Assembly: GCA_902779315.1 (NCBI GenBank)
Contig: CACZBC010000015.1
Span: 1-47,478, forward strand
Direction of reading: 5' to 3'
DNA length: 47,478 nt
From: an uncultured Bacteroidales bacterium
GTDB lineage: Bacteria > Bacteroidota > Bacteroidia > Bacteroidales > Bacteroidaceae
The notes beneath the pieces were generated by a model. The model saw only the letters and a list, made by a program, of their open reading frames with translations, was not told the origin of the DNA and did not search any database. Numbering within the stretch: position 1 is the stretch's first letter; each line of letters opens with the position of its first letter. This document shows, piece after piece, positions 1 through 6,169 of this stretch. The position numbers and the translations under genes were made by a program.

Positions 1-58
1 GAGCGCATTAAAGGTCGGCCACCCCGTCAGAGAGGCGGCTTCACCTCATTTGCGGGTG

Positions 59-89
59 CAAAGGTACGCTTTTTCCGCGAACTGGCAAA
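59..89 (-). promoter_or_regulatory. Bacteroidetes-type promoter reading leftward out of the window
   Basis: On the minus strand TTTG (89-86) is followed by exactly 19 nt and then TACCTTTG (66-59), which fits the Bacteroidetes consensus TTTG-N19-21-TAnnTTTG. Transcription would start near base 53 and run off the left edge. An ATG lies at 8-6 but only two further codons are visible, so the gene driven cannot be named. The interval 90-209 holds a run of T followed by a run of A (98-115) and an alternating TATA/GCGC stretch (140-160), but no gene. Confidence 0.6.
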
Positions 90-209
90 ACATTTCGAGT
101 TTTTTTTCAAAAAAAGATGCATTTTTGCCATCCATACATTATATATTATATATGCGCGCGATAAAAACAAAGCATCATTGTCAGCAAGCTGAAGAGTTTG
201 GTGAGTTTT

Positions 210-1178
210 CTAAACCATAAACTTACCAATAATATTTATTGCTGATTCTATATCTTTTTTTGAGCAGAGTTCATGAGGTGTGTGCATATATCTGCATGGT
301 ATTGAGACTACTGCTGTTTTTACACCATCTCTATAAAGTTGTATCACATTTGCATCTGTTCCTGTTGCGTATGGACTTGCCTCTACTTGATACATAATCT
401 TGTGCTTGATTGCCGTTTCTTCAAGACTCTCAAATAGTGCCGGATAGACATTGGGGCCTTTTGCCAAAACACATCCTTCACCCAACTTGATATCTCCATC
501 ACGAAAAACATTCATAGTGGGATAATCAGTGGCATGAGTAACGTCTACACAGATACAAATTTCAGGTTTTATCGAATGAGCCACAACAGAAGCGCCTCTC
601 ATACCGATCTCTTCATGATTTGAGGCAACAAAATACACATCCCATGGAATGTTTGCTTCACAAAATTGCTCTGCCAATTTTAGCAGCACATTCAGTCCTA
701 CTTGATTGTCAAAATAAGATCCTGTAATAAGGTCATTTGGCAGTTCCTCATAGTCTGCACAAAAGAAAGCATAATCTCCTTTGCTGACCATCTGTGATGC
801 TTCTGCCCGACTCTTTGCGCCTATATCTATCCACAGATTCTCATAAGCGACCTTGACATTCTGTTCTTCTCGTGTCAGATGAATTGGTTTTTTACCTATG
901 ATGCCAACAACTTCGTTATCCTTATGCCTTATTACAACTTTCCTTGCTTGGAGAATTAGAGTATCTATACAACCTGCAGGTTTTACATAAAGGAAACCAT
1001 TTTCATCAATATGAGTTATCATAAGACGCACCACATCATGGTGAGCAATTAACATGATTCTCTTTCCCATACCTGGCTTGTGGGCAACGATGTTACCTAA
1101 AACGTCATTATAAACTTCGCCCACGAAAGGATTAATCTTATCAGAAAAGTCTTTATAAGACATAAAAGTATTATTCAT
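210..1178 (-). CDS. M42-family metallopeptidase (aminopeptidase/endoglucanase M type), short N-terminus
   Basis: A cytoplasmic dinuclear-metal peptidase of the M42 fold. All expected ligands are visible: His46-x-Asp48 (AHHD), Asp157 (SYFDNQ), Glu189-Glu190 (NHEEIGMRGA), Asp212 (VDVTHA) and His299 (YMHTP). At 322 residues it is about 20-40 shorter than usual, because the helix that normally precedes the 'LGN' strand is largely missing. The start overlaps the stop of the upstream 112-residue gene by 4 nt, so the two are probably translationally coupled. It is the last visible gene of a minus-strand run: radical SAM maturase, small peptide, 112-residue protein, this gene. By inference it could trim a leader or degrade a modified peptide; M42 enzymes are otherwise general aminopeptidases. 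Family assignment is firm, role is inferred. Confidence 0.85.
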   Translation of the reverse strand: MNNTFMSYKDFSDKINPFVGEVYNDVLGNIVAHKPGMGKRIMLIAHHDVVRLMITHIDENGFLYVKPAGCIDTLILQARKVVIRHKDNEVVGIIGKKPIHLTREEQNVKVAYENLWIDIGAKSRAEASQMVSKGDYAFFCADYEELPNDLITGSYFDNQVGLNVLLKLAEQFCEANIPWDVYFVASNHEEIGMRGASVVAHSIKPEICICVDVTHATDYPTMNVFRDGDIKLGEGCVLAKGPNVYPALFESLEETAIKHKIMYQVEASPYATGTDANVIQLYRDGVKTAVVSIPCRYMHTPHELCSKKDIESAINIIGKFMV

Positions 1179-1513
1179 TTCTCCGGATATGTTTTGTCTG
1201 GTCCGTATTTATTTTGCTCAAAAGATTCTTTCCGGGAAATGTCCGCTGTCTCTGTCAGTTTGTTTTTACTGGCTTCTGCATTTAGAGCTCCATCAATGGC
1301 AAACAAATCTTCCACATTATTTGAGGTTAGCGAATGTTCTCTGCCATCATCACATACAATGGTACCGCTATCTTTTCCACAACGTTCTTTCAAGTTCATC
1401 TGCATTAACGGAATTAATGCTTTTTTCCTTTCATCTGTAGTTTTTCTACAGGAATACTCTGCCTTAAAATCGTCAAACTGCTTTTTCGATCTTCTAAACT
1501 CTTCTTTTCCCAT
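1175..1513 (-). CDS. hypothetical charged 112-residue protein in the RiPP-like cluster
   Basis: I do not recognise the family. The protein is strongly charged (Lys/Arg-rich N-terminal half, Asp/Glu-rich middle) and has no signal peptide or membrane segment. It has three cysteines, at about residues 22, 45 and 54. It lies about 65 nt downstream of the 34-residue peptide gene and overlaps the M42 peptidase start by 4 nt (ATGA), which supports real translation. An opposing plus-strand ORF of similar length covers the same bases but has no matching context. Its place between the peptide and the peptidase suggests an accessory role, such as binding the precursor or giving immunity; nothing in the sequence proves this. 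Confidence 0.6.
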   Translation of the reverse strand: MGKEEFRRSKKQFDDFKAEYSCRKTTDERKKALIPLMQMNLKERCGKDSGTIVCDDGREHSLTSNNVEDLFAIDGALNAEASKNKLTETADISRKESFEQNKYGPDKTYPEK

Positions 1514-1578
1514 AATGAAATTTCTATGTTAAAAATATAAAGCATAGGGAAGAAAATCTTCCCTATGCAGTCAAAAGG

Positions 1579-1683
1579 CTACAACAGACGGTACTGAATG
1601 CCGCAACTATACTCGTCCATTTGAGGGCATCCACTTGCAGTCATCACCTTAGAAGCTGCACTAACATTCAAATCTACTTTCAT
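1579..1683 (-). CDS. candidate RiPP precursor peptide, 34 residues, two cysteines
   Basis: A short ORF begins at the ATG at 1683-1681 and ends at TAG 1581-1579. It lies 48 nt downstream of the radical SAM/SPASM maturase stop. The N-terminal part (starting MKVDLNVSAASKVM) looks like a short leader. The C-terminal part, TASGCPQMDEYSCGIQYRLL, holds Cys19 and Cys27 seven residues apart among Gly, Ser, Asp, Gln and Tyr acceptors, as expected for a peptide cross-linked by a radical SAM enzyme. There is no strong Shine-Dalgarno, which is normal in this phylum. The call rests on position beside the maturase, small size and cysteine placement; chance cannot be excluded without homologues. Confidence 0.6.
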   Translation of the reverse strand: MKVDLNVSAASKVMTASGCPQMDEYSCGIQYRLL

Positions 1684-1731
1684 AGTTTTACATGTTTATT
1701 GGTTATAGTGATGTTTCTTGGGGAACCACAT

Positions 1732-3297
1732 TTACCCACCTACTTTCAATCTCGTATCGCTATAATCGTGTAGCGAACTTTCACGTTGTATTTTCATTGG
1801 AACGAAGTCTGGCAATTCATTCAGGCGCTCTCTCAAGGATTTTCCTTCTAAAGGGTCATACCCAGACATCATTTTCTGTGCCAATTCATATCTTGCTTTT
1901 GCCATGGAGCAATTCACTTCTCCTGCTTTCAGGGGAGTGCCATGCTCTATGAAGTTATTCCCTGGGCAGAGATTACAATAAGCACAGTAATCATGTCGCC
2001 CACAATCTTCATAGTCATTTAGGCTCAATCCCAGCCAATACTTTCGCTCTTTGCTATCATTTATTATTTCTATGATACCTTGTTCTTTCAGATTTCCGAA
2101 AAGCGTATGGAAAGCACAACAAGGGATGACGTTACCTTCAGGTGTAATACACAACGAATTGTCTCCTGCACCACAAGGATTTCTTGTCATCAATTTCTTT
2201 TGCCCTCCGTAATTTGGAGCTTCTTTTCCCACATACAAAGGCACATTATCATCTCTCAGAACAACCTCCATTTCTTCTGGCGTCATGCGAAGATATTTGC
2301 TGACACATCTGTCACCTTCTATGGAATCAGACAGATTTATTTCAAATTGAGGTACTACACCATATTGCTTAGCAATGTCTGCTACCATATAATATGACTT
2401 TACGTTCGGACGCATTACACAGCATTTCAAATTCATCGGAACTGCGAGGGAAGATAATTGTCGCACAACTGACATGGAACGTTCCCACGAACCTGGTATC
2501 CGTGTTATATAATCATGCACCTCTGGAAGTCCGCTATAAATGGAAACACCTACCAATCGAGGATAGTAATTGGCTAATCGCTCCACATCCTTTACAATAC
2601 GCTGTCCATTAGTGAACACATCGAAAGCTATACCTTTATTATGTAGGTAGTCTACAATGTCCCATGCAAAAGGCTTCGAGAATGGGTCTCCACCTGTCAG
2701 ACAGACTTTAATTAATCCCTGCTCATACAGTTCATCTATCAGCCTCTTATAATCCTCCCATTGCAACTCTTGCCTATCTCCACGAGTACTCTTCTCATTA
2801 TCATTTCGAGTCGCACCCTCGTTATAACAATGGATGCATTTCTCACTGCAATTGTAAGTCAATTCAAACATTGCGCTGGTAATGCCACCTGCTTTTTCTG
2901 TGTACATCATTTCGGCGTTTGAGACGGCATAAGGCAATTTCTCTTGAGTTGTCTTCTCTACAGTCAGCTCTTGCTGGCGATTATATTCACTGACTCTTTT
3001 ACGATAATCAAAAATGACTTCAGGCGTTGGAAATATAGATGAGACTATACCCATCTGCTCCAATTGCTTGAAAAATGGGATTAGACTTTCTAATGCGATA
3101 TTCAACTTAGATGCAATGGATTCCAGGATAAACTCTCCGTTTCTAGGAACCGTAAGTATTTCCCCAATAACCATTGCAGAATAACTTTCAAAGAAGTAAC
3201 TCATCCCTGCTATAAGATTATAGTAAATAGCAGATTGCGATTTCTCGTGGTATCTGCCACAAGTCCAAATGGGACGATAGTATTTGTGCTTACACAT
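1732..3297 (-). CDS. radical SAM/SPASM peptide maturase
   Basis: A 521-residue protein in three parts. Residues 20-95 form a helical, winged-helix-like region that may bind a leader peptide, as PqqD-like/RRE domains do. The radical SAM core follows, with Cys150-x3-Cys154-x2-Cys157 (NCSEKCIHC) and the SAM-binding 'TGGDPF'. A C-terminal SPASM domain carries auxiliary-cluster cysteines in NPCGAGDNSLC, PCC and a dense CGRHDYCAYCNLC motif. Such enzymes install thioether or C-C cross-links in ribosomal peptides (sactipeptides, ranthipeptides and others). It is the first recognisable gene of a minus-strand cluster, followed by a 34-residue Cys2 peptide, a small protein and an M42 peptidase. No transporter is visible, though the cluster may continue left of the window. 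The local sequence is AT-richer than the housekeeping genes nearby, which suggests transfer. Enzyme class is firm; the product is unknown. Confidence 0.88.
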   Translation of the reverse strand: MCKHKYYRPIWTCGRYHEKSQSAIYYNLIAGMSYFFESYSAMVIGEILTVPRNGEFILESIASKLNIALESLIPFFKQLEQMGIVSSIFPTPEVIFDYRKRVSEYNRQQELTVEKTTQEKLPYAVSNAEMMYTEKAGGITSAMFELTYNCSEKCIHCYNEGATRNDNEKSTRGDRQELQWEDYKRLIDELYEQGLIKVCLTGGDPFSKPFAWDIVDYLHNKGIAFDVFTNGQRIVKDVERLANYYPRLVGVSIYSGLPEVHDYITRIPGSWERSMSVVRQLSSLAVPMNLKCCVMRPNVKSYYMVADIAKQYGVVPQFEINLSDSIEGDRCVSKYLRMTPEEMEVVLRDDNVPLYVGKEAPNYGGQKKLMTRNPCGAGDNSLCITPEGNVIPCCAFHTLFGNLKEQGIIEIINDSKERKYWLGLSLNDYEDCGRHDYCAYCNLCPGNNFIEHGTPLKAGEVNCSMAKARYELAQKMMSGYDPLEGKSLRERLNELPDFVPMKIQRESSLHDYSDTRLKVGG

Positions 3298-3363
3298 AAG
3301 CTAATCTATTTCCTATGGCTCTTAGGGGAGATTTTATTAGTATGTTTCAGGCATACAAAGAAA

Positions 3364-3440
3364 GTGTGAGCCTACTTCGCTATCTCAATGGTAGGCTCTG
3401 GACTTGCCCTAGATGTAGATAAAGAAGAAACGACTCACAC
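3364..3440 (-). promoter_or_regulatory. nested hairpins upstream of the radical SAM maturase
   Basis: GAGCCTAC (3368-3375) pairs perfectly with GTAGGCTC (3391-3398) across a 15-nt loop. An outer pair, GTGTGAG (3364-3370) and CTCACAC (3434-3440), shares three bases with it, so the two folds would compete. On the minus strand this lies about 70 nt before the maturase start and overlaps the 3' end of the weak small ORF at 3409-3651. It could be an attenuator, a terminator between the two, or part of a regulatory leader. No T-run follows the inner stem on the minus strand. Confidence 0.35.
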
Positions 3441-3651
3441 CTAAGGCAGTATATGACAATATGCATATCCTACACTTAGGGAGAGCGTTTATACCCTTTC
3501 TTACATCATAAGGAGAATTGTCCAGATTCACCATTGAAGAAAAAGCGAAACGCTTTCCAAATATGTCTGCAATCTTAATGACTGCGTGACAAAGATAAGG
3601 AATCTTTCCGAAACAAACATCATCAACGATGATTTTTTTGAAAGATTTCAT
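3409..3651 (-). CDS. doubtful 80-residue ORF, possibly a second peptide substrate
   Basis: The ORF begins at the ATG at 3651; an in-frame ATG 42 nt upstream is less likely. AAAAAAGG immediately precedes the start. It encodes a basic peptide with four cysteines and a hydrophobic C-terminus rich in Phe/Ile. No family is recognised and codon use is unremarkable for AT-rich DNA. It is listed because it lies just upstream of the maturase on the same strand and fills an otherwise empty 480-nt stretch. It may well be chance. Confidence 0.22.
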   Translation of the reverse strand: MKSFKKIIVDDVCFGKIPYLCHAVIKIADIFGKRFAFSSMVNLDNSPYDVRKGINALPKCRICILSYTALGVSRFFFIYI

Positions 3652-3871
3652 CCTTTTTTGATTTCCATTTAATCTTTTAAATAAGAATGACACAAAATGA
3701 ATATACCTTTTTAGTCGATTTTAAGATTACATTGACACGTTTTTAAAATGACATAATATATAATAAGGAATATAACCGTTTAGTTACATCTCATAGAGAT
3801 GGCATTTATTGGATGTTTTTTCTTTGCAATCCAATAATATCTCGAAGAAAAAATCGAGCAAAATCAAAAAC

Positions 3872-4019
3872 ACTCGTCACTCGTCAGGTTTTGGGGTTAA
3901 TGCAAAGAATATCAACAACATAGAACATGACGAGTGCATGATGAGTCGTCAGGAACTCGTCAGGGTATTACTTGTTTGGTTATCAAGACTTTAGAACATG
4001 AACATGATGAGTGATGAGT
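3872..4019. repeat. inverted word-repeat element A (ACTCGTC words)
   Basis: The left arm 3872-3886 (ACTCGTCACTCGTCA, two copies of the word ACTCGTC) faces the right arm 4005-4019 (TGATGAGTGATGAGT). As RNA they pair over all 15 positions, with two G-U pairs. Between them, 3928-3957 carries further copies in both orientations (TGACGAGTG, GATGAGTCGTC, AACTCGTC). No ORF is credible here. Confidence 0.7.
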
Positions 4020-4041
4020 AAAATGCAAAACGAAATTGAAA

Positions 4042-4194
4042 CACTCTGCACTCTACACCAATGCCATTTAAGTCATTATATGCCAACCACATACATGGGT
4101 GTAGAGTTTGGTGTAGAGTGGTGAAGAGACTCTACACCCTCATTACTTGCTAGTATTCAATAGATTAAAGCAGGTTGGTGTAGAGTGTAGAGTG
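4042..4194. repeat. inverted word-repeat element B (ACTCTACACC words)
   Basis: The left arm 4042-4061 (CACTCTGCACTCTACACCAA) pairs with the right arm 4175-4194 (TTGGTGTAGAGTGTAGAGTG) over 20 positions with a single G-U. Inside, GGGTGTAGAGT (4097-4107) pairs perfectly with ACTCTACACCC (4129-4139), and another GGTGTAGAGTG lies in that loop. The architecture matches element A (3872-4019) and the element at 47193-47366, but the word differs. No ORF is present. Confidence 0.75.
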
Positions 4195-4208
4195 TTTCCC
4201 GACATTTC

Positions 4209-4253
4209 AGCATTTCAAATGCTTATATTCAGTCCTGTCGGATTTCAAATCCG
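4209..4253. repeat. pair of ATTTCAAAT-core palindromes
   Basis: Two short near-perfect palindromes share one core: AGCATTTCAAATGCT (4209-4223) and CGGATTTCAAATCCG (4239-4253). They lie between inverted element B and the first 22-bp array, adding to the repeat island at 3.85-4.40 kb. Confidence 0.6.
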
Positions 4254-4268
4254 CCAGAACAAGGCGAC

Positions 4269-4346
4269 AATCGCAATCGACACACTAGATAATCCCAAAC
4301 GTCACACTAGTTAATTGCAAACGTGGCACTAGATGATCGCAAACGT
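4269..4346 (+). repeat. 22-bp tandem repeat array 1
   Basis: Units begin at 4269, 4291, 4313 and (partial) 4335, in exact 22-bp phase. Each contains a version of GCAAWCGTCACACTAGT followed by five variable bases. This copy is more diverged than the others (GACACACTAG, GTGGCACTAG). It is the only one of the five main arrays not next to a visible stop codon; the nearest gene is the sulfatase, starting about 245 nt downstream. Confidence 0.85.
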
Positions 4347-4350
4347 AAAG

Positions 4351-4399
4351 CCCCTCTCTAACTCCCCCCAAAGGGGCGAGGACAAAGGGGAAGAGAGAA
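4351..4399. repeat. CCCCTCT...AACTCCCCC interspersed repeat, copy 1
   Basis: CCCCTCTCTAACTCCCCCC followed by AAAGGGGCGAGG and a second AAAGGGG, giving C-rich and G-rich complementary blocks. The same opening words occur on the minus strand inside the broken primase gene (45315-45400). Short elements of this kind are scattered through many Bacteroidetes genomes. Confidence 0.6.
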
Positions 4400-4470
4400 T
4401 TAACAAACCATAAAACACTTTTGCTCTGTATTCTGGGGGTCGTTTTTCGAGGCGCTTTTTTGCGTCTTCG

Positions 4471-4587
4471 TTGTGTATGTGGAAAAATTTTGTAACTTTG
4501 ACCTGCGGTCGAACTTACTCCCGCTCGGAAATAAAAAGAAAAACTCATGTTTTCCTTTTGTATTTCGCTCGCTTATTCGTAACTTTG
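4471..4587 (+). promoter_or_regulatory. two tandem promoters for the sulfatase operon
   Basis: Two matches to the Bacteroidetes promoter are present. Distal: TTG 4471-4473, 19 nt, TAACTTTG 4493-4500. Proximal: TTTG 4557-4560, 19 nt, TAACTTTG 4580-4587. The proximal -7 box ends only 4 nt before the ATG at 4592, so its transcript would be leaderless or nearly so, while the distal one gives a leader of roughly 85 nt. A CCGCTCGG-type short repeat lies between them. Confidence 0.65.
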
Positions 4588-4591
4588 CAAC

Positions 4592-6169
4592 ATGAAACGT
4601 ATTATTCATTTTGGCACGTTGGCTTCGGCCTTGCTGCCTGTCGTCCCTGTTGCTGCCAAGACGGTGAAGGGAAATGCGGCTGTCGATAATCGTGAGCAGC
4701 CGAATGTGATTGTTATCTTCGCCGATGACCTGGGTTATGGCGACTTGGAGTGCTTTGGTGCGAGCCGAGTTCAGACGCCGAACGTTAACGCGTTGGCACA
4801 GAGCGGCATACGACTGACGAATGTTCACGCGATTGCTGCCACGAGTACGCCTTCGCGCTATGGTCTTCTGACTGGCGAGTATGCTTTCCGCCATGCAGGA
4901 ACAGACATCGCCCGGGGTAATGCGGGCATGATTATCCGACCTGAACAGTTCACTATGGCCGATGCTTTCAAGAACGCGGGCTATGCTACGGCGGCCATCG
5001 GAAAGTGGCATCTGGGCTTGGGCGACAAGGACGGAGAGCAGGACTGGAACGCCCAACTGCCTATGCACCTGGGCGACATCGGGTTCGACTACCACTACAT
5101 CATGGCTGCGACGGCTGACCGTACACCCTGTGTCTTCATCGAGCAAGGCCATGTGGCGAACTACGACGAGACGGCTCCGATACATGTCAGCTACGAGGAG
5201 AACTTCCCTGGAGAGCCGACGGGAAAGGACAATCCGGAACTCCTCTACAACCTGAAGGCGAGTCACGGCCACAATCAGAGTATCGTGAACGGCATAGGCC
5301 GAATCGGCTACATGAAGGGTGGCGGCAAGGCTCTCTGGAAGGACGAGAACATTGCCGACAGCATAGCTGCCCACGCGATTGGCTTCATCCAGAAACACAG
5401 GCAGGAACCTTTCTTCATGTACCTGGCCACGAACGATGTGCATGTGCCCCGCTTCCCTCATGACCGCTTCAGGGGAAAGAATCCGATGGGCTTCAGGGGG
5501 GACGCGATTGCGCAGTTCGACTGGACGGTCGGGCAGGTACTGAGCGAGTTGGAGCGCTTGGGATTGAGGAAGAACACGCTCATCATCCTGAGCAGCGACA
5601 ACGGTCCTGTGGTGGATGACGGCTATCAGGACAGGGCTGTCGAGCTGCTTGGCGACCATCGGCCTGCAGGTCCGTATCGGGCAGGAAAGTACAGTACATT
5701 CGAGGGTGGCACGATAGTTCCGGCCATTGTGTCTTGGCCGAAAAGGATAGAGGCAGGTCAGGAGTCGGATGCTCTGGTTTCGCAGATTGACTGGCTGGCT
5801 TCGCTCTCAGCCCTGGTGGGAGCCCGCATTCCCAAAGGTGGCGCTACAGACAGCGAGAACCGCCTGGGCACACTGCTTGGAGAGAACAAGGAGGACCGCC
5901 CCTACGTCCTGGAACAAGCCGCCAACCACACCATCTCGGTTCGAACCAAAGCGTGGAAATACATTCCCCCAAGCCAAGGTCCGGCCATCATTTCTGGTCC
6001 GAACATGGAGAGCGGATACAGCCGCGAGCCTCAACTCTACGATATGAGTCAGCCCTACGAACAGAAGAATGTGGCTCTGGAGCAACCGCGAGTCGTGTTC
6101 GAGATGCAGTCGTACATAGAAAAGGAACGCGCGAAAGGAAGCACCTACAAGTCGCCAATCTCAAAATAA
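4592..6169 (+). CDS. secreted serine-type sulfatase (S1 family)
   Basis: A 525-residue sulfatase with an N-terminal signal peptide (about residues 1-22, ending VAA). Metal ligands sit in IFADDLGYGD (Asp45-Asp46). The formylglycine site is Ser85-Thr-Pro-Ser-Arg89, followed by GLLTG. Serine at this position means maturation by an anaerobic sulfatase-maturing radical SAM enzyme (anSME), which is not in the window. Other signature pieces are GKWHLG and SSDNGP. It hydrolyses sulfate esters in the periplasm. It is followed after 19 nt by a GH16 enzyme and then a D,D-dipeptidase on the same strand. The pairing with GH16 suggests a sulfated glycan, such as mucin O-glycans or an algal polymer; the sequence alone does not decide. 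Confidence 0.93.
   Translation: MKRIIHFGTLASALLPVVPVAAKTVKGNAAVDNREQPNVIVIFADDLGYGDLECFGASRVQTPNVNALAQSGIRLTNVHAIAATSTPSRYGLLTGEYAFRHAGTDIARGNAGMIIRPEQFTMADAFKNAGYATAAIGKWHLGLGDKDGEQDWNAQLPMHLGDIGFDYHYIMAATADRTPCVFIEQGHVANYDETAPIHVSYEENFPGEPTGKDNPELLYNLKASHGHNQSIVNGIGRIGYMKGGGKALWKDENIADSIAAHAIGFIQKHRQEPFFMYLATNDVHVPRFPHDRFRGKNPMGFRGDAIAQFDWTVGQVLSELERLGLRKNTLIILSSDNGPVVDDGYQDRAVELLGDHRPAGPYRAGKYSTFEGGTIVPAIVSWPKRIEAGQESDALVSQIDWLASLSALVGARIPKGGATDSENRLGTLLGENKEDRPYVLEQAANHTISVRTKAWKYIPPSQGPAIISGPNMESGYSREPQLYDMSQPYEQKNVALEQPRVVFEMQSYIEKERAKGSTYKSPISK

Follow-up and report, generated by a model that had tools for sequence, protein, structure and literature searches.

Known radical SAM/SPASM peptide maturases are encoded next to the short precursor peptide that they modify, an arrangement also found in the locus described here. 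SuiB forms a C–C link, and PapB acts at a Cys-x3-acceptor spacing; the abstract describing PapB reports Cys–Asp and Cys–Glu thioethers. In the Bacteroidales, one account calls characterised class I bacteriocins, which are ribosomally synthesized and post-translationally modified peptides (RiPPs), elusive (PMC10352776). Here we analyse a locus at the start of the 47-kb contig G000:C15 of an uncultured Bacteroidales bacterium of the gut, the whole of which (47,478 nucleotides) is referred to as the window. Four open reading frames (ORFs) lie there in a row, all on the minus strand: a radical SAM/SPASM maturase, a 34-codon ORF with two cysteines, a small protein and an M42 peptidase. The cluster is a new family inside a known kind, the radical SAM/SPASM RiPPs.

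A conserved two-cysteine peptide gene 3′ of the maturase

The comparison used 32 distinct Bacteroidales loci (numbered with the prefix L): 21 from a one-genome-per-species search, ten from whole-genome searches, and the window. Before counting we dropped copies of the window, L009, L020, L022 and L016 (L030–L034 and L045), shorter cuts of L046–L055 (L035–L044) and further cuts of the same genomes (L056–L059). A matching short ORF was found 3′ of the maturase in 21 of 21 loci from the one-genome-per-species search and in 30 of the 32 distinct loci. It has a conserved leader, MKVDLNVSAASK..., and in 28 of the 30 the canonical core Cys-x7-Cys-Gly...Arg, usually CP-x6-CGIxYR. All 28 canonical peptides keep Ser11, Cys19, Cys27, Gly28 and Arg32, and most keep Tyr31 (26), Pro20 (23, with Ser in 5), Ile29 (23, with Val in 4) and Glu24 (21, with Gln in 6); positions 22, 23, 25, 26 and 30 vary freely. 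Searching six frames of 585,139 bases with the canonical pattern, itself derived from these same peptides, returned 28 matches, every one in the slot 3′ of the maturase. The peptide starts 47–53 nt past the maturase end in 23 of 30 loci (48 nt in the window); the exceptions are L054 (64 nt), L050, L051, L053 and L055 (83–100 nt), L013 (190 nt) and L019 (overlap), the spacing in L046–L055 being counted from where the protein match stops and not from a stop codon. The 34-codon ORF is real. Because a leader-plus-core peptide is conserved together with the maturase, no other interpretation of the locus comes close to that of a RiPP cluster. An earlier sequence-only reading of the window had proposed this ORF as the precursor in a candidate RiPP cluster, and the search for short ORFs beside maturase homologues that it suggested recovered the conserved peptide.

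The two cysteines flank a loop that changes fast. Between pairs of the 28 canonical peptides, residues differ at 71% of positions in the loop (20–26), 49% in the leader (1–18) and 22% in the tail (27–32). Over the same pairs, codon positions 1, 2 and 3 differ at 24, 15 and 59% in the tail, 38, 30 and 56% in the leader, and 57, 53 and 64% in the loop. The excess at third positions that purifying selection produces is seen in tail and leader and is nearly absent from the loop. In six of seven chosen pairs of loci, the loop had changed more than the combined maturase, leader and tail sequences, at P < 0.05 (1.9e-5, 8.7e-9, 0.022, 0.029, 0.0015 and 0.00077; uncorrected tests on pairs that we selected, with loci common to several pairs). 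In the strongest pair, L020 and L022, 9 of 21 loop bases differ and the maturase gene differs by 2.8%; between the window and L009, 9 of 21 loop bases differ, compared with 8.1% of the maturase gene and 1 of 57 bases in codons 1–19.

The maturase matches the Pfam models Radical_SAM (E 1.2e-18) and SPASM (E 3.3e-9), both over the cut-off. Its cluster motif is CSEKCIHC (residues 150–157), and this CxxxCxxC and the SPASM-region cysteines 375, 383, 393, 432, 438, 441, 444 and 463 are invariant in 13 of 13 aligned sequences. AlphaFold2 modelled the protein with a mean predicted local distance difference test (pLDDT) score of 75.8 and block means above 90 across residues 11–100. A Foldseek search with this model ranked SuiB first (E 5.8e-11), PqqE second, CteB near the top and SkfB ninth, and the epimerase EpeE appeared from rank 39. 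The N-terminal domain (about residues 1–110) was confidently modelled as strands plus helices. Scanning ten members of this domain with Pfam gave weak matches in some, most commonly Rrf2 (4 of 10), including several helix-turn-helix or regulator-type families and others that are unrelated. The domain is perhaps a winged helix, and the weak matches fit, though do not prove, a fold like the RiPP recognition element (RRE).

The maturase is sparsely distributed, being present in 9 of 399 genomes of the family (E ≤ 1e-60), 7 of 393 of the order (E ≤ 1e-50) and 1 of 395 of the phylum (E ≤ 1e-45), with the source genome counted in all three draws. On viral contigs, neither the maturase nor the c1 family described below had a confirmed relative. 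Plasmid relatives of the maturase were rejected: the 225 matching records all fall below 60% identity, and no match spans 80% of the protein. Two enterobacterial conjugative plasmids encode a 478-aa radical SAM protein (L061:4572-6008 and L062:2974-4410) that is 24% identical to the window maturase, and the listed ORFs that follow the E. coli and Salmonella plasmid enzymes examined include no similar peptide. In PADLOC, the maturase gave only pVip-type matches (best E 4.6e-12) covering part of the radical SAM domain, and this candidate was also set aside.

The coordinates of the features are collected in Table 1. The anatomy given by the sequence-only reading, from the SAM/SPASM protein through the 48-nt gap and two-cysteine ORF to the small protein and M42 on one strand, agrees with the ORF coordinates and with Pfam. 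The AT-richness that it had noted holds as well: G+C content is 39.8% in the first 3 kb and 47–56% in the other fourteen 3-kb bins, which run up to the last 2.5 kb of the window. An Rfam scan of window positions 1–5000 gave no match at E ≤ 1. Upstream of the maturase lies an intergenic dispersed repeat (3859–4000, extending to about 4260 in some copies) that recurs at 11 other places in the genome over at least 100 bp at 75–95% identity, and at three short ones. The source is a draft genome (84% complete, 107 contigs). Window positions 1–161 share 99% identity with the end of contig C66, so the contig seems to be broken at a repeat just after the M42 gene; the contig of L009 likewise ends 117 nt past its M42 ORF.

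Table 1. Features of the locus in window coordinates
Feature	Position	Strand	Basis or remark
Radical SAM/SPASM peptide maturase, 521 aa	1732..3297	(-)	Pfam, alignment, AlphaFold2, Foldseek
Precursor peptide, 34 aa, MKVDLNVSAASKVMTASGCPQMDEYSCGIQYRLL, Cys19 and Cys27	1579..1683	(-)	Same ORF in 30/32 loci
Variable loop, codons 20-26, Pro20 and Glu/Gln24 mostly kept	1606..1626	(-)	Peptide comparisons
Codons of Cys19 and Cys27	1627-1629 and 1603-1605	(-)	Flank the variable loop of the peptide
Small 112-aa protein, in a variable small-gene slot	1175..1513	(-)	Homologues in few loci
M42 aminopeptidase (predicted TET-type), 322 aa	210..1178	(-)	Pfam, PDB relatives, motif residues

An exchangeable partner gene

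The 322-aa ORF matches Peptidase_M42 (E 4.4e-81), and its PDB relatives, MJ0555 (E 2.2e-60) and the lysyl aminopeptidase 4x8i, indicate a TET-type aminopeptidase. The motif residues AH-x-D (45–48), D157, EE (189–190), D212 and H299, which the alignment marks as the probable M42 active site, are kept in 11 of 11 cluster M42 proteins. The M42 and 112-aa ORFs share 4 nt, where the former starts and the latter ends. Neither the 34-aa peptide nor the 112-aa protein matched a Pfam or NCBIfam model. Homologues of the 112-aa protein are present in 5 of 32 loci (the window, L009, L017, L020 and L022), and L051 encodes a possible sixth, matched weakly (E 2e-5 within a small set) and missed by the profile search; among 171 family genomes only the source genome has it. 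Elsewhere the slot holds other small ORFs, some weakly interrelated, or none was seen among mechanically called ORFs. An accessory or immunity role for the 112-aa protein is possible. The kilobase that follows the peptide is 99.1% identical between the window and L009, and the maturase gene 91.9%, so parts of the cluster can have separate histories. In four Prevotellaceae loci a protein of about 320 aa that contains cysteines follows M42 (L011:12830-13795, L013:12959-13912, L014:12769-13728 and L017:9717-10682); its L011 copy has no Pfam match.

The sequence-only reading had grouped the peptide, the 112-aa protein and M42 into one system, whose co-occurrence was to be checked across genomes. 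That grouping was not supported across the 32 loci: M42 is present in 11, the 112-aa protein in 5, and another gene in 17. This gene, which encodes a family of about 280 aa (c1), stands in M42's place, and L025 has both. L047, L048, L049, L053 and L055 have neither, the contig of L055 ending soon after. The core of the system is the maturase plus the peptide. On the maturase tree (13 of 27 inner branches well supported and 13 open; L028 and L048, with an incomplete or broken maturase, and the copy L045 excluded), the well-supported branches alone force at least 3 changes for M42 and at least 4 for c1: the partner gene has switched repeatedly. The partner labels are also clustered on the tree, since they need 8 changes, compared with a shuffled mean of 11.1, and only 6 of 200 shuffles were as low. 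Among 393 genomes of the order, c1 was found in four, and each of them belongs to the six genomes, besides the source genome, in which that same draw yielded the maturase; as 4 of 4 c1 genomes carry the maturase, c1 is tied to it. A plasmid search with one c1 member as query gave no match.

c1 is perhaps protein kinase-like. It had no Pfam match (three members scanned) and no NCBIfam match (one scanned), and a PDB profile search gave four matches at E 0.46–1.4, three of them named kinases. In profile comparisons, a Ser/Thr kinase family from the neighbourhoods aligned with c1 over the catalytic loop at a score of 27.0 (at most 22.0 in 60 shuffles; E 0.011), and 13 SelO proteins aligned with it over the N-lobe at 26.1 (at most 22.9 in 30 shuffles and 25.0 in 100; E 0.016), both E-values being those of single comparisons; profiles of six other neighbour families scored 12–20. 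Both alignments are in register with the kinase fold. The c1 loop reads LHNAI..QN...ELLDFE, in which the Asp of HRD is seemingly missing and a metal-binding-type Asn and a DFE-type Asp are kept, as in SelO. The AlphaFold2 model of c1 (pLDDT 47) was too poor for fold comparison. Membership of SelO itself was rejected and kept as a lead only, with no PF02696 match in 3 of 3 scanned members and E 0.52 against E. coli SelO alone.

Two further observations concern kinase-type genes. In 11 of 32 loci, the maturase has a Ser/Thr protein kinase gene and a gene of about 185 aa as a pair no more than about 7 kb away, upstream in L011, L012, L014, L016, L017, L018, L024 and L029 and on the other strand in L050, L051 and L053; the L011 copy of the ~185-aa protein has no Pfam match, and the L029 version is unmatched in the window's own genome. 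The Polaromonas plasmid pE3SP1 (L073) encodes a divergent member of the SelO family, at 28.6% identity to the E. coli protein, next to a SagB/ThcOx-type dehydrogenase and a NifU gene.

Proposed maturation and competing explanations

We consider it probable that the locus belongs to a RiPP family in which the maturase links Cys19 and Cys27 to conserved neighbours and M42 trims the leader; the genes, their linkage, conservation and variability are observed, and the cross-links and their sites, leader binding, trimming and the role of the product are what we infer here. The maturase would hold the conserved leader, and its radical SAM and auxiliary Fe–S clusters would tie the core, most likely through thioethers from Cys19 and Cys27. 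Candidate acceptors are the conserved Glu/Gln24, Ile/Val29 or Tyr31, as elsewhere the sequence varies too much for a linkage site. These ties would hold the short, fast-changing loop C-P-x6-C in place. In the variant found in the window, the M42 aminopeptidase would trim the leader from the N terminus and halt at the ring. TET2 digests peptides inside its chamber (PMC8993905), so M42 could plausibly act on a 34-residue precursor and be halted by a cross-linked ring. Since the loop diversifies, the product would more likely be a recognition agent (a signal, antagonist or specificity tag) than a redox cofactor.

Several results weigh against parts of this reading. An MK-type leader is joined to a sequence without the core motif in L055 and in L053, where the peptide has one Cys and retains the leader start ahead of a different core, and no recognisable peptide was found in L049 (maturase 35% identical) or in L048, whose broken maturase match stops at residue 396 and has one internal stop. 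The loop of L011 and L013 shows no excess (P = 0.8), and in the pair L020 and L022 fast change extends beyond the loop, with 11.6% divergence in the kilobase that follows the peptide. For the N-terminal domain there was no match to an RRE or PqqD model, and the window's own copy had no Pfam match. The maturase scored far below the cut-off of every listed NCBIfam family (25 of 57 listed), so its reaction cannot be read from its family; the best score among the matches listed was that of the mycofactocin maturase MftC (87 against a 265-bit cut-off), and the PapB model gave 40 bits, below its threshold of 340. No exporter family recurs among 122 flanking proteins scanned with Pfam, out of 140 flanking ORFs listed for L009–L029 and the window (the window's own ORFs, some very long or distant ones and the ten later loci fall outside the scan). 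Membrane families among the matches listed were Proton_antipo_M (two members) and single matches such as ABC_tran, MlaE and permeases; the lists are ordered by member count, and unlisted families have one member at most. As 21 of 32 loci have no M42, this enzyme cannot be the general means of leader removal. It also exists outside the cluster, as four family genomes encode a full-length M42 (31–45% identical to that of the window) and have no maturase match.

These last two observations, together with the 99.1% and 91.9% identities of the window and L009, would also fit an alternative that we regard as possible but doubtful, in which M42 and the 112-aa protein are an unrelated metabolic pair lying downstream by chance. 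However, in 11 loci, which come from Prevotellaceae, Bacteroidaceae and unplaced Bacteroidales, M42 is encoded downstream and on the same strand, and full-length M42 is otherwise rare: with the Pfam model, 20 of 151 family genomes had a match at E ≤ 0.001, 10 were over the cut-off, and 5, including that of the window, were near full-length. The window M42 is the only one found in its own genome, at the 84% completeness of that draft, and in 11 of 11 carriers with no cluster M42 no relative was detected at E ≤ 0.001, although this search returned no match anywhere.

It is unlikely that the maturase carries out another modification, epimerisation or a C–C link, while the two cysteines merely form a disulfide. 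EpeE in the Foldseek list and the C–C chemistry of the top match SuiB are consistent with this, and Cys-x7-Cys suits a disulfide-held loop. A disulfide, however, would require export or an oxidising place, and the scanned flanks show no recurrent gene for export or oxidation, with one DsbD-type match.

A precursor of a small cofactor such as pyrroloquinoline quinone or mycofactocin, in which the maturase would alter the C-terminal Tyr region and the peptidase digest the rest, would account for the rank of PqqE, the leading mycofactocin score among the matches listed, the best conservation at residues 27–32 and a core CG-I/V-x-Y that resembles the end of the MftA precursor, but is improbable given how far that score falls under its cut-off, a loop that diversifies in most pairs, the sparse distribution (9 of 399 family genomes), residues beyond position 31 in 28 of 28 canonical peptides, and no recurring redox partner among the families listed except Proton_antipo_M (2 of 74).

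Returning to the cross-linked, leader-trimmed peptide, a bolder and rather improbable extension would make the system modular: the tied peptide with its diversifying loop would be an exchangeable specificity part, and the adjoining gene the effector, either a self-compartmentalised aminopeptidase or a kinase-fold (SelO-like, HRD-less) nucleotide-transferring enzyme. If so, the peptide of the kinase-fold form would be modified by that enzyme, or direct it, inside the cell and without export. The diversifying loop and the exchangeable partner add to the interest of the cluster. The Bacteroidales gain a radical SAM peptide family whose roughly thirty precursors are available for chemical study, in which the natural loop variants offer a ready test of the residues that the enzyme needs, and the M42/c1 switch provides two natural forms of one cluster through which the contribution of the second enzyme can be compared.

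Relation to described systems

The window maturase shares CxxxCxxC, a SPASM region and an extra N-terminal domain with CteB, SkfB, SuiB and PapB. The predicted model also resembles CteB, SkfB and SuiB in overall fold (Foldseek), but identity to these three is only 13–18%, and the precursor has a sequence different from those of all four systems. With PapB, the window peptide would share the Cys-x3-acceptor spacing, in the form of Cys27-x3-Tyr31. For c1, the SelO protein AMPylase gives a weak profile match in register over the N-lobe, but c1 lacks a Pfam SelO match and has about 280 aa against 478 aa in SelO.

Mycofactocin provides the best-scoring maturase model and has a core Cys-Gly-Val/Ile plus Tyr. 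It differs in that the maturase of the window is far below the cut-off, in the variable loop of the window peptide, and in having MftE, a creatininase homologue (PMC10885120), where the window has M42. The term M42 is absent from the text of the same source, a review of RiPP leader proteases (PMC10885120). In the literature searched, which largely excludes subscription papers, we found no described family with this core. The sequence-only reading knew of no described system that combines such a cluster with an M42 peptidase, yet the chryseobasin (chr) cluster has one, ChrP, together with the short core CPACGMG (PMC10214503). Chryseobasin and the window thus have in common a RiPP cluster, an M42 peptidase and a short Cys-Pro...Cys-Gly core; they differ in that chryseobasin relies on a DUF692 iron enzyme and other accessory genes, and in its CPxC spacing in place of CPx6C.

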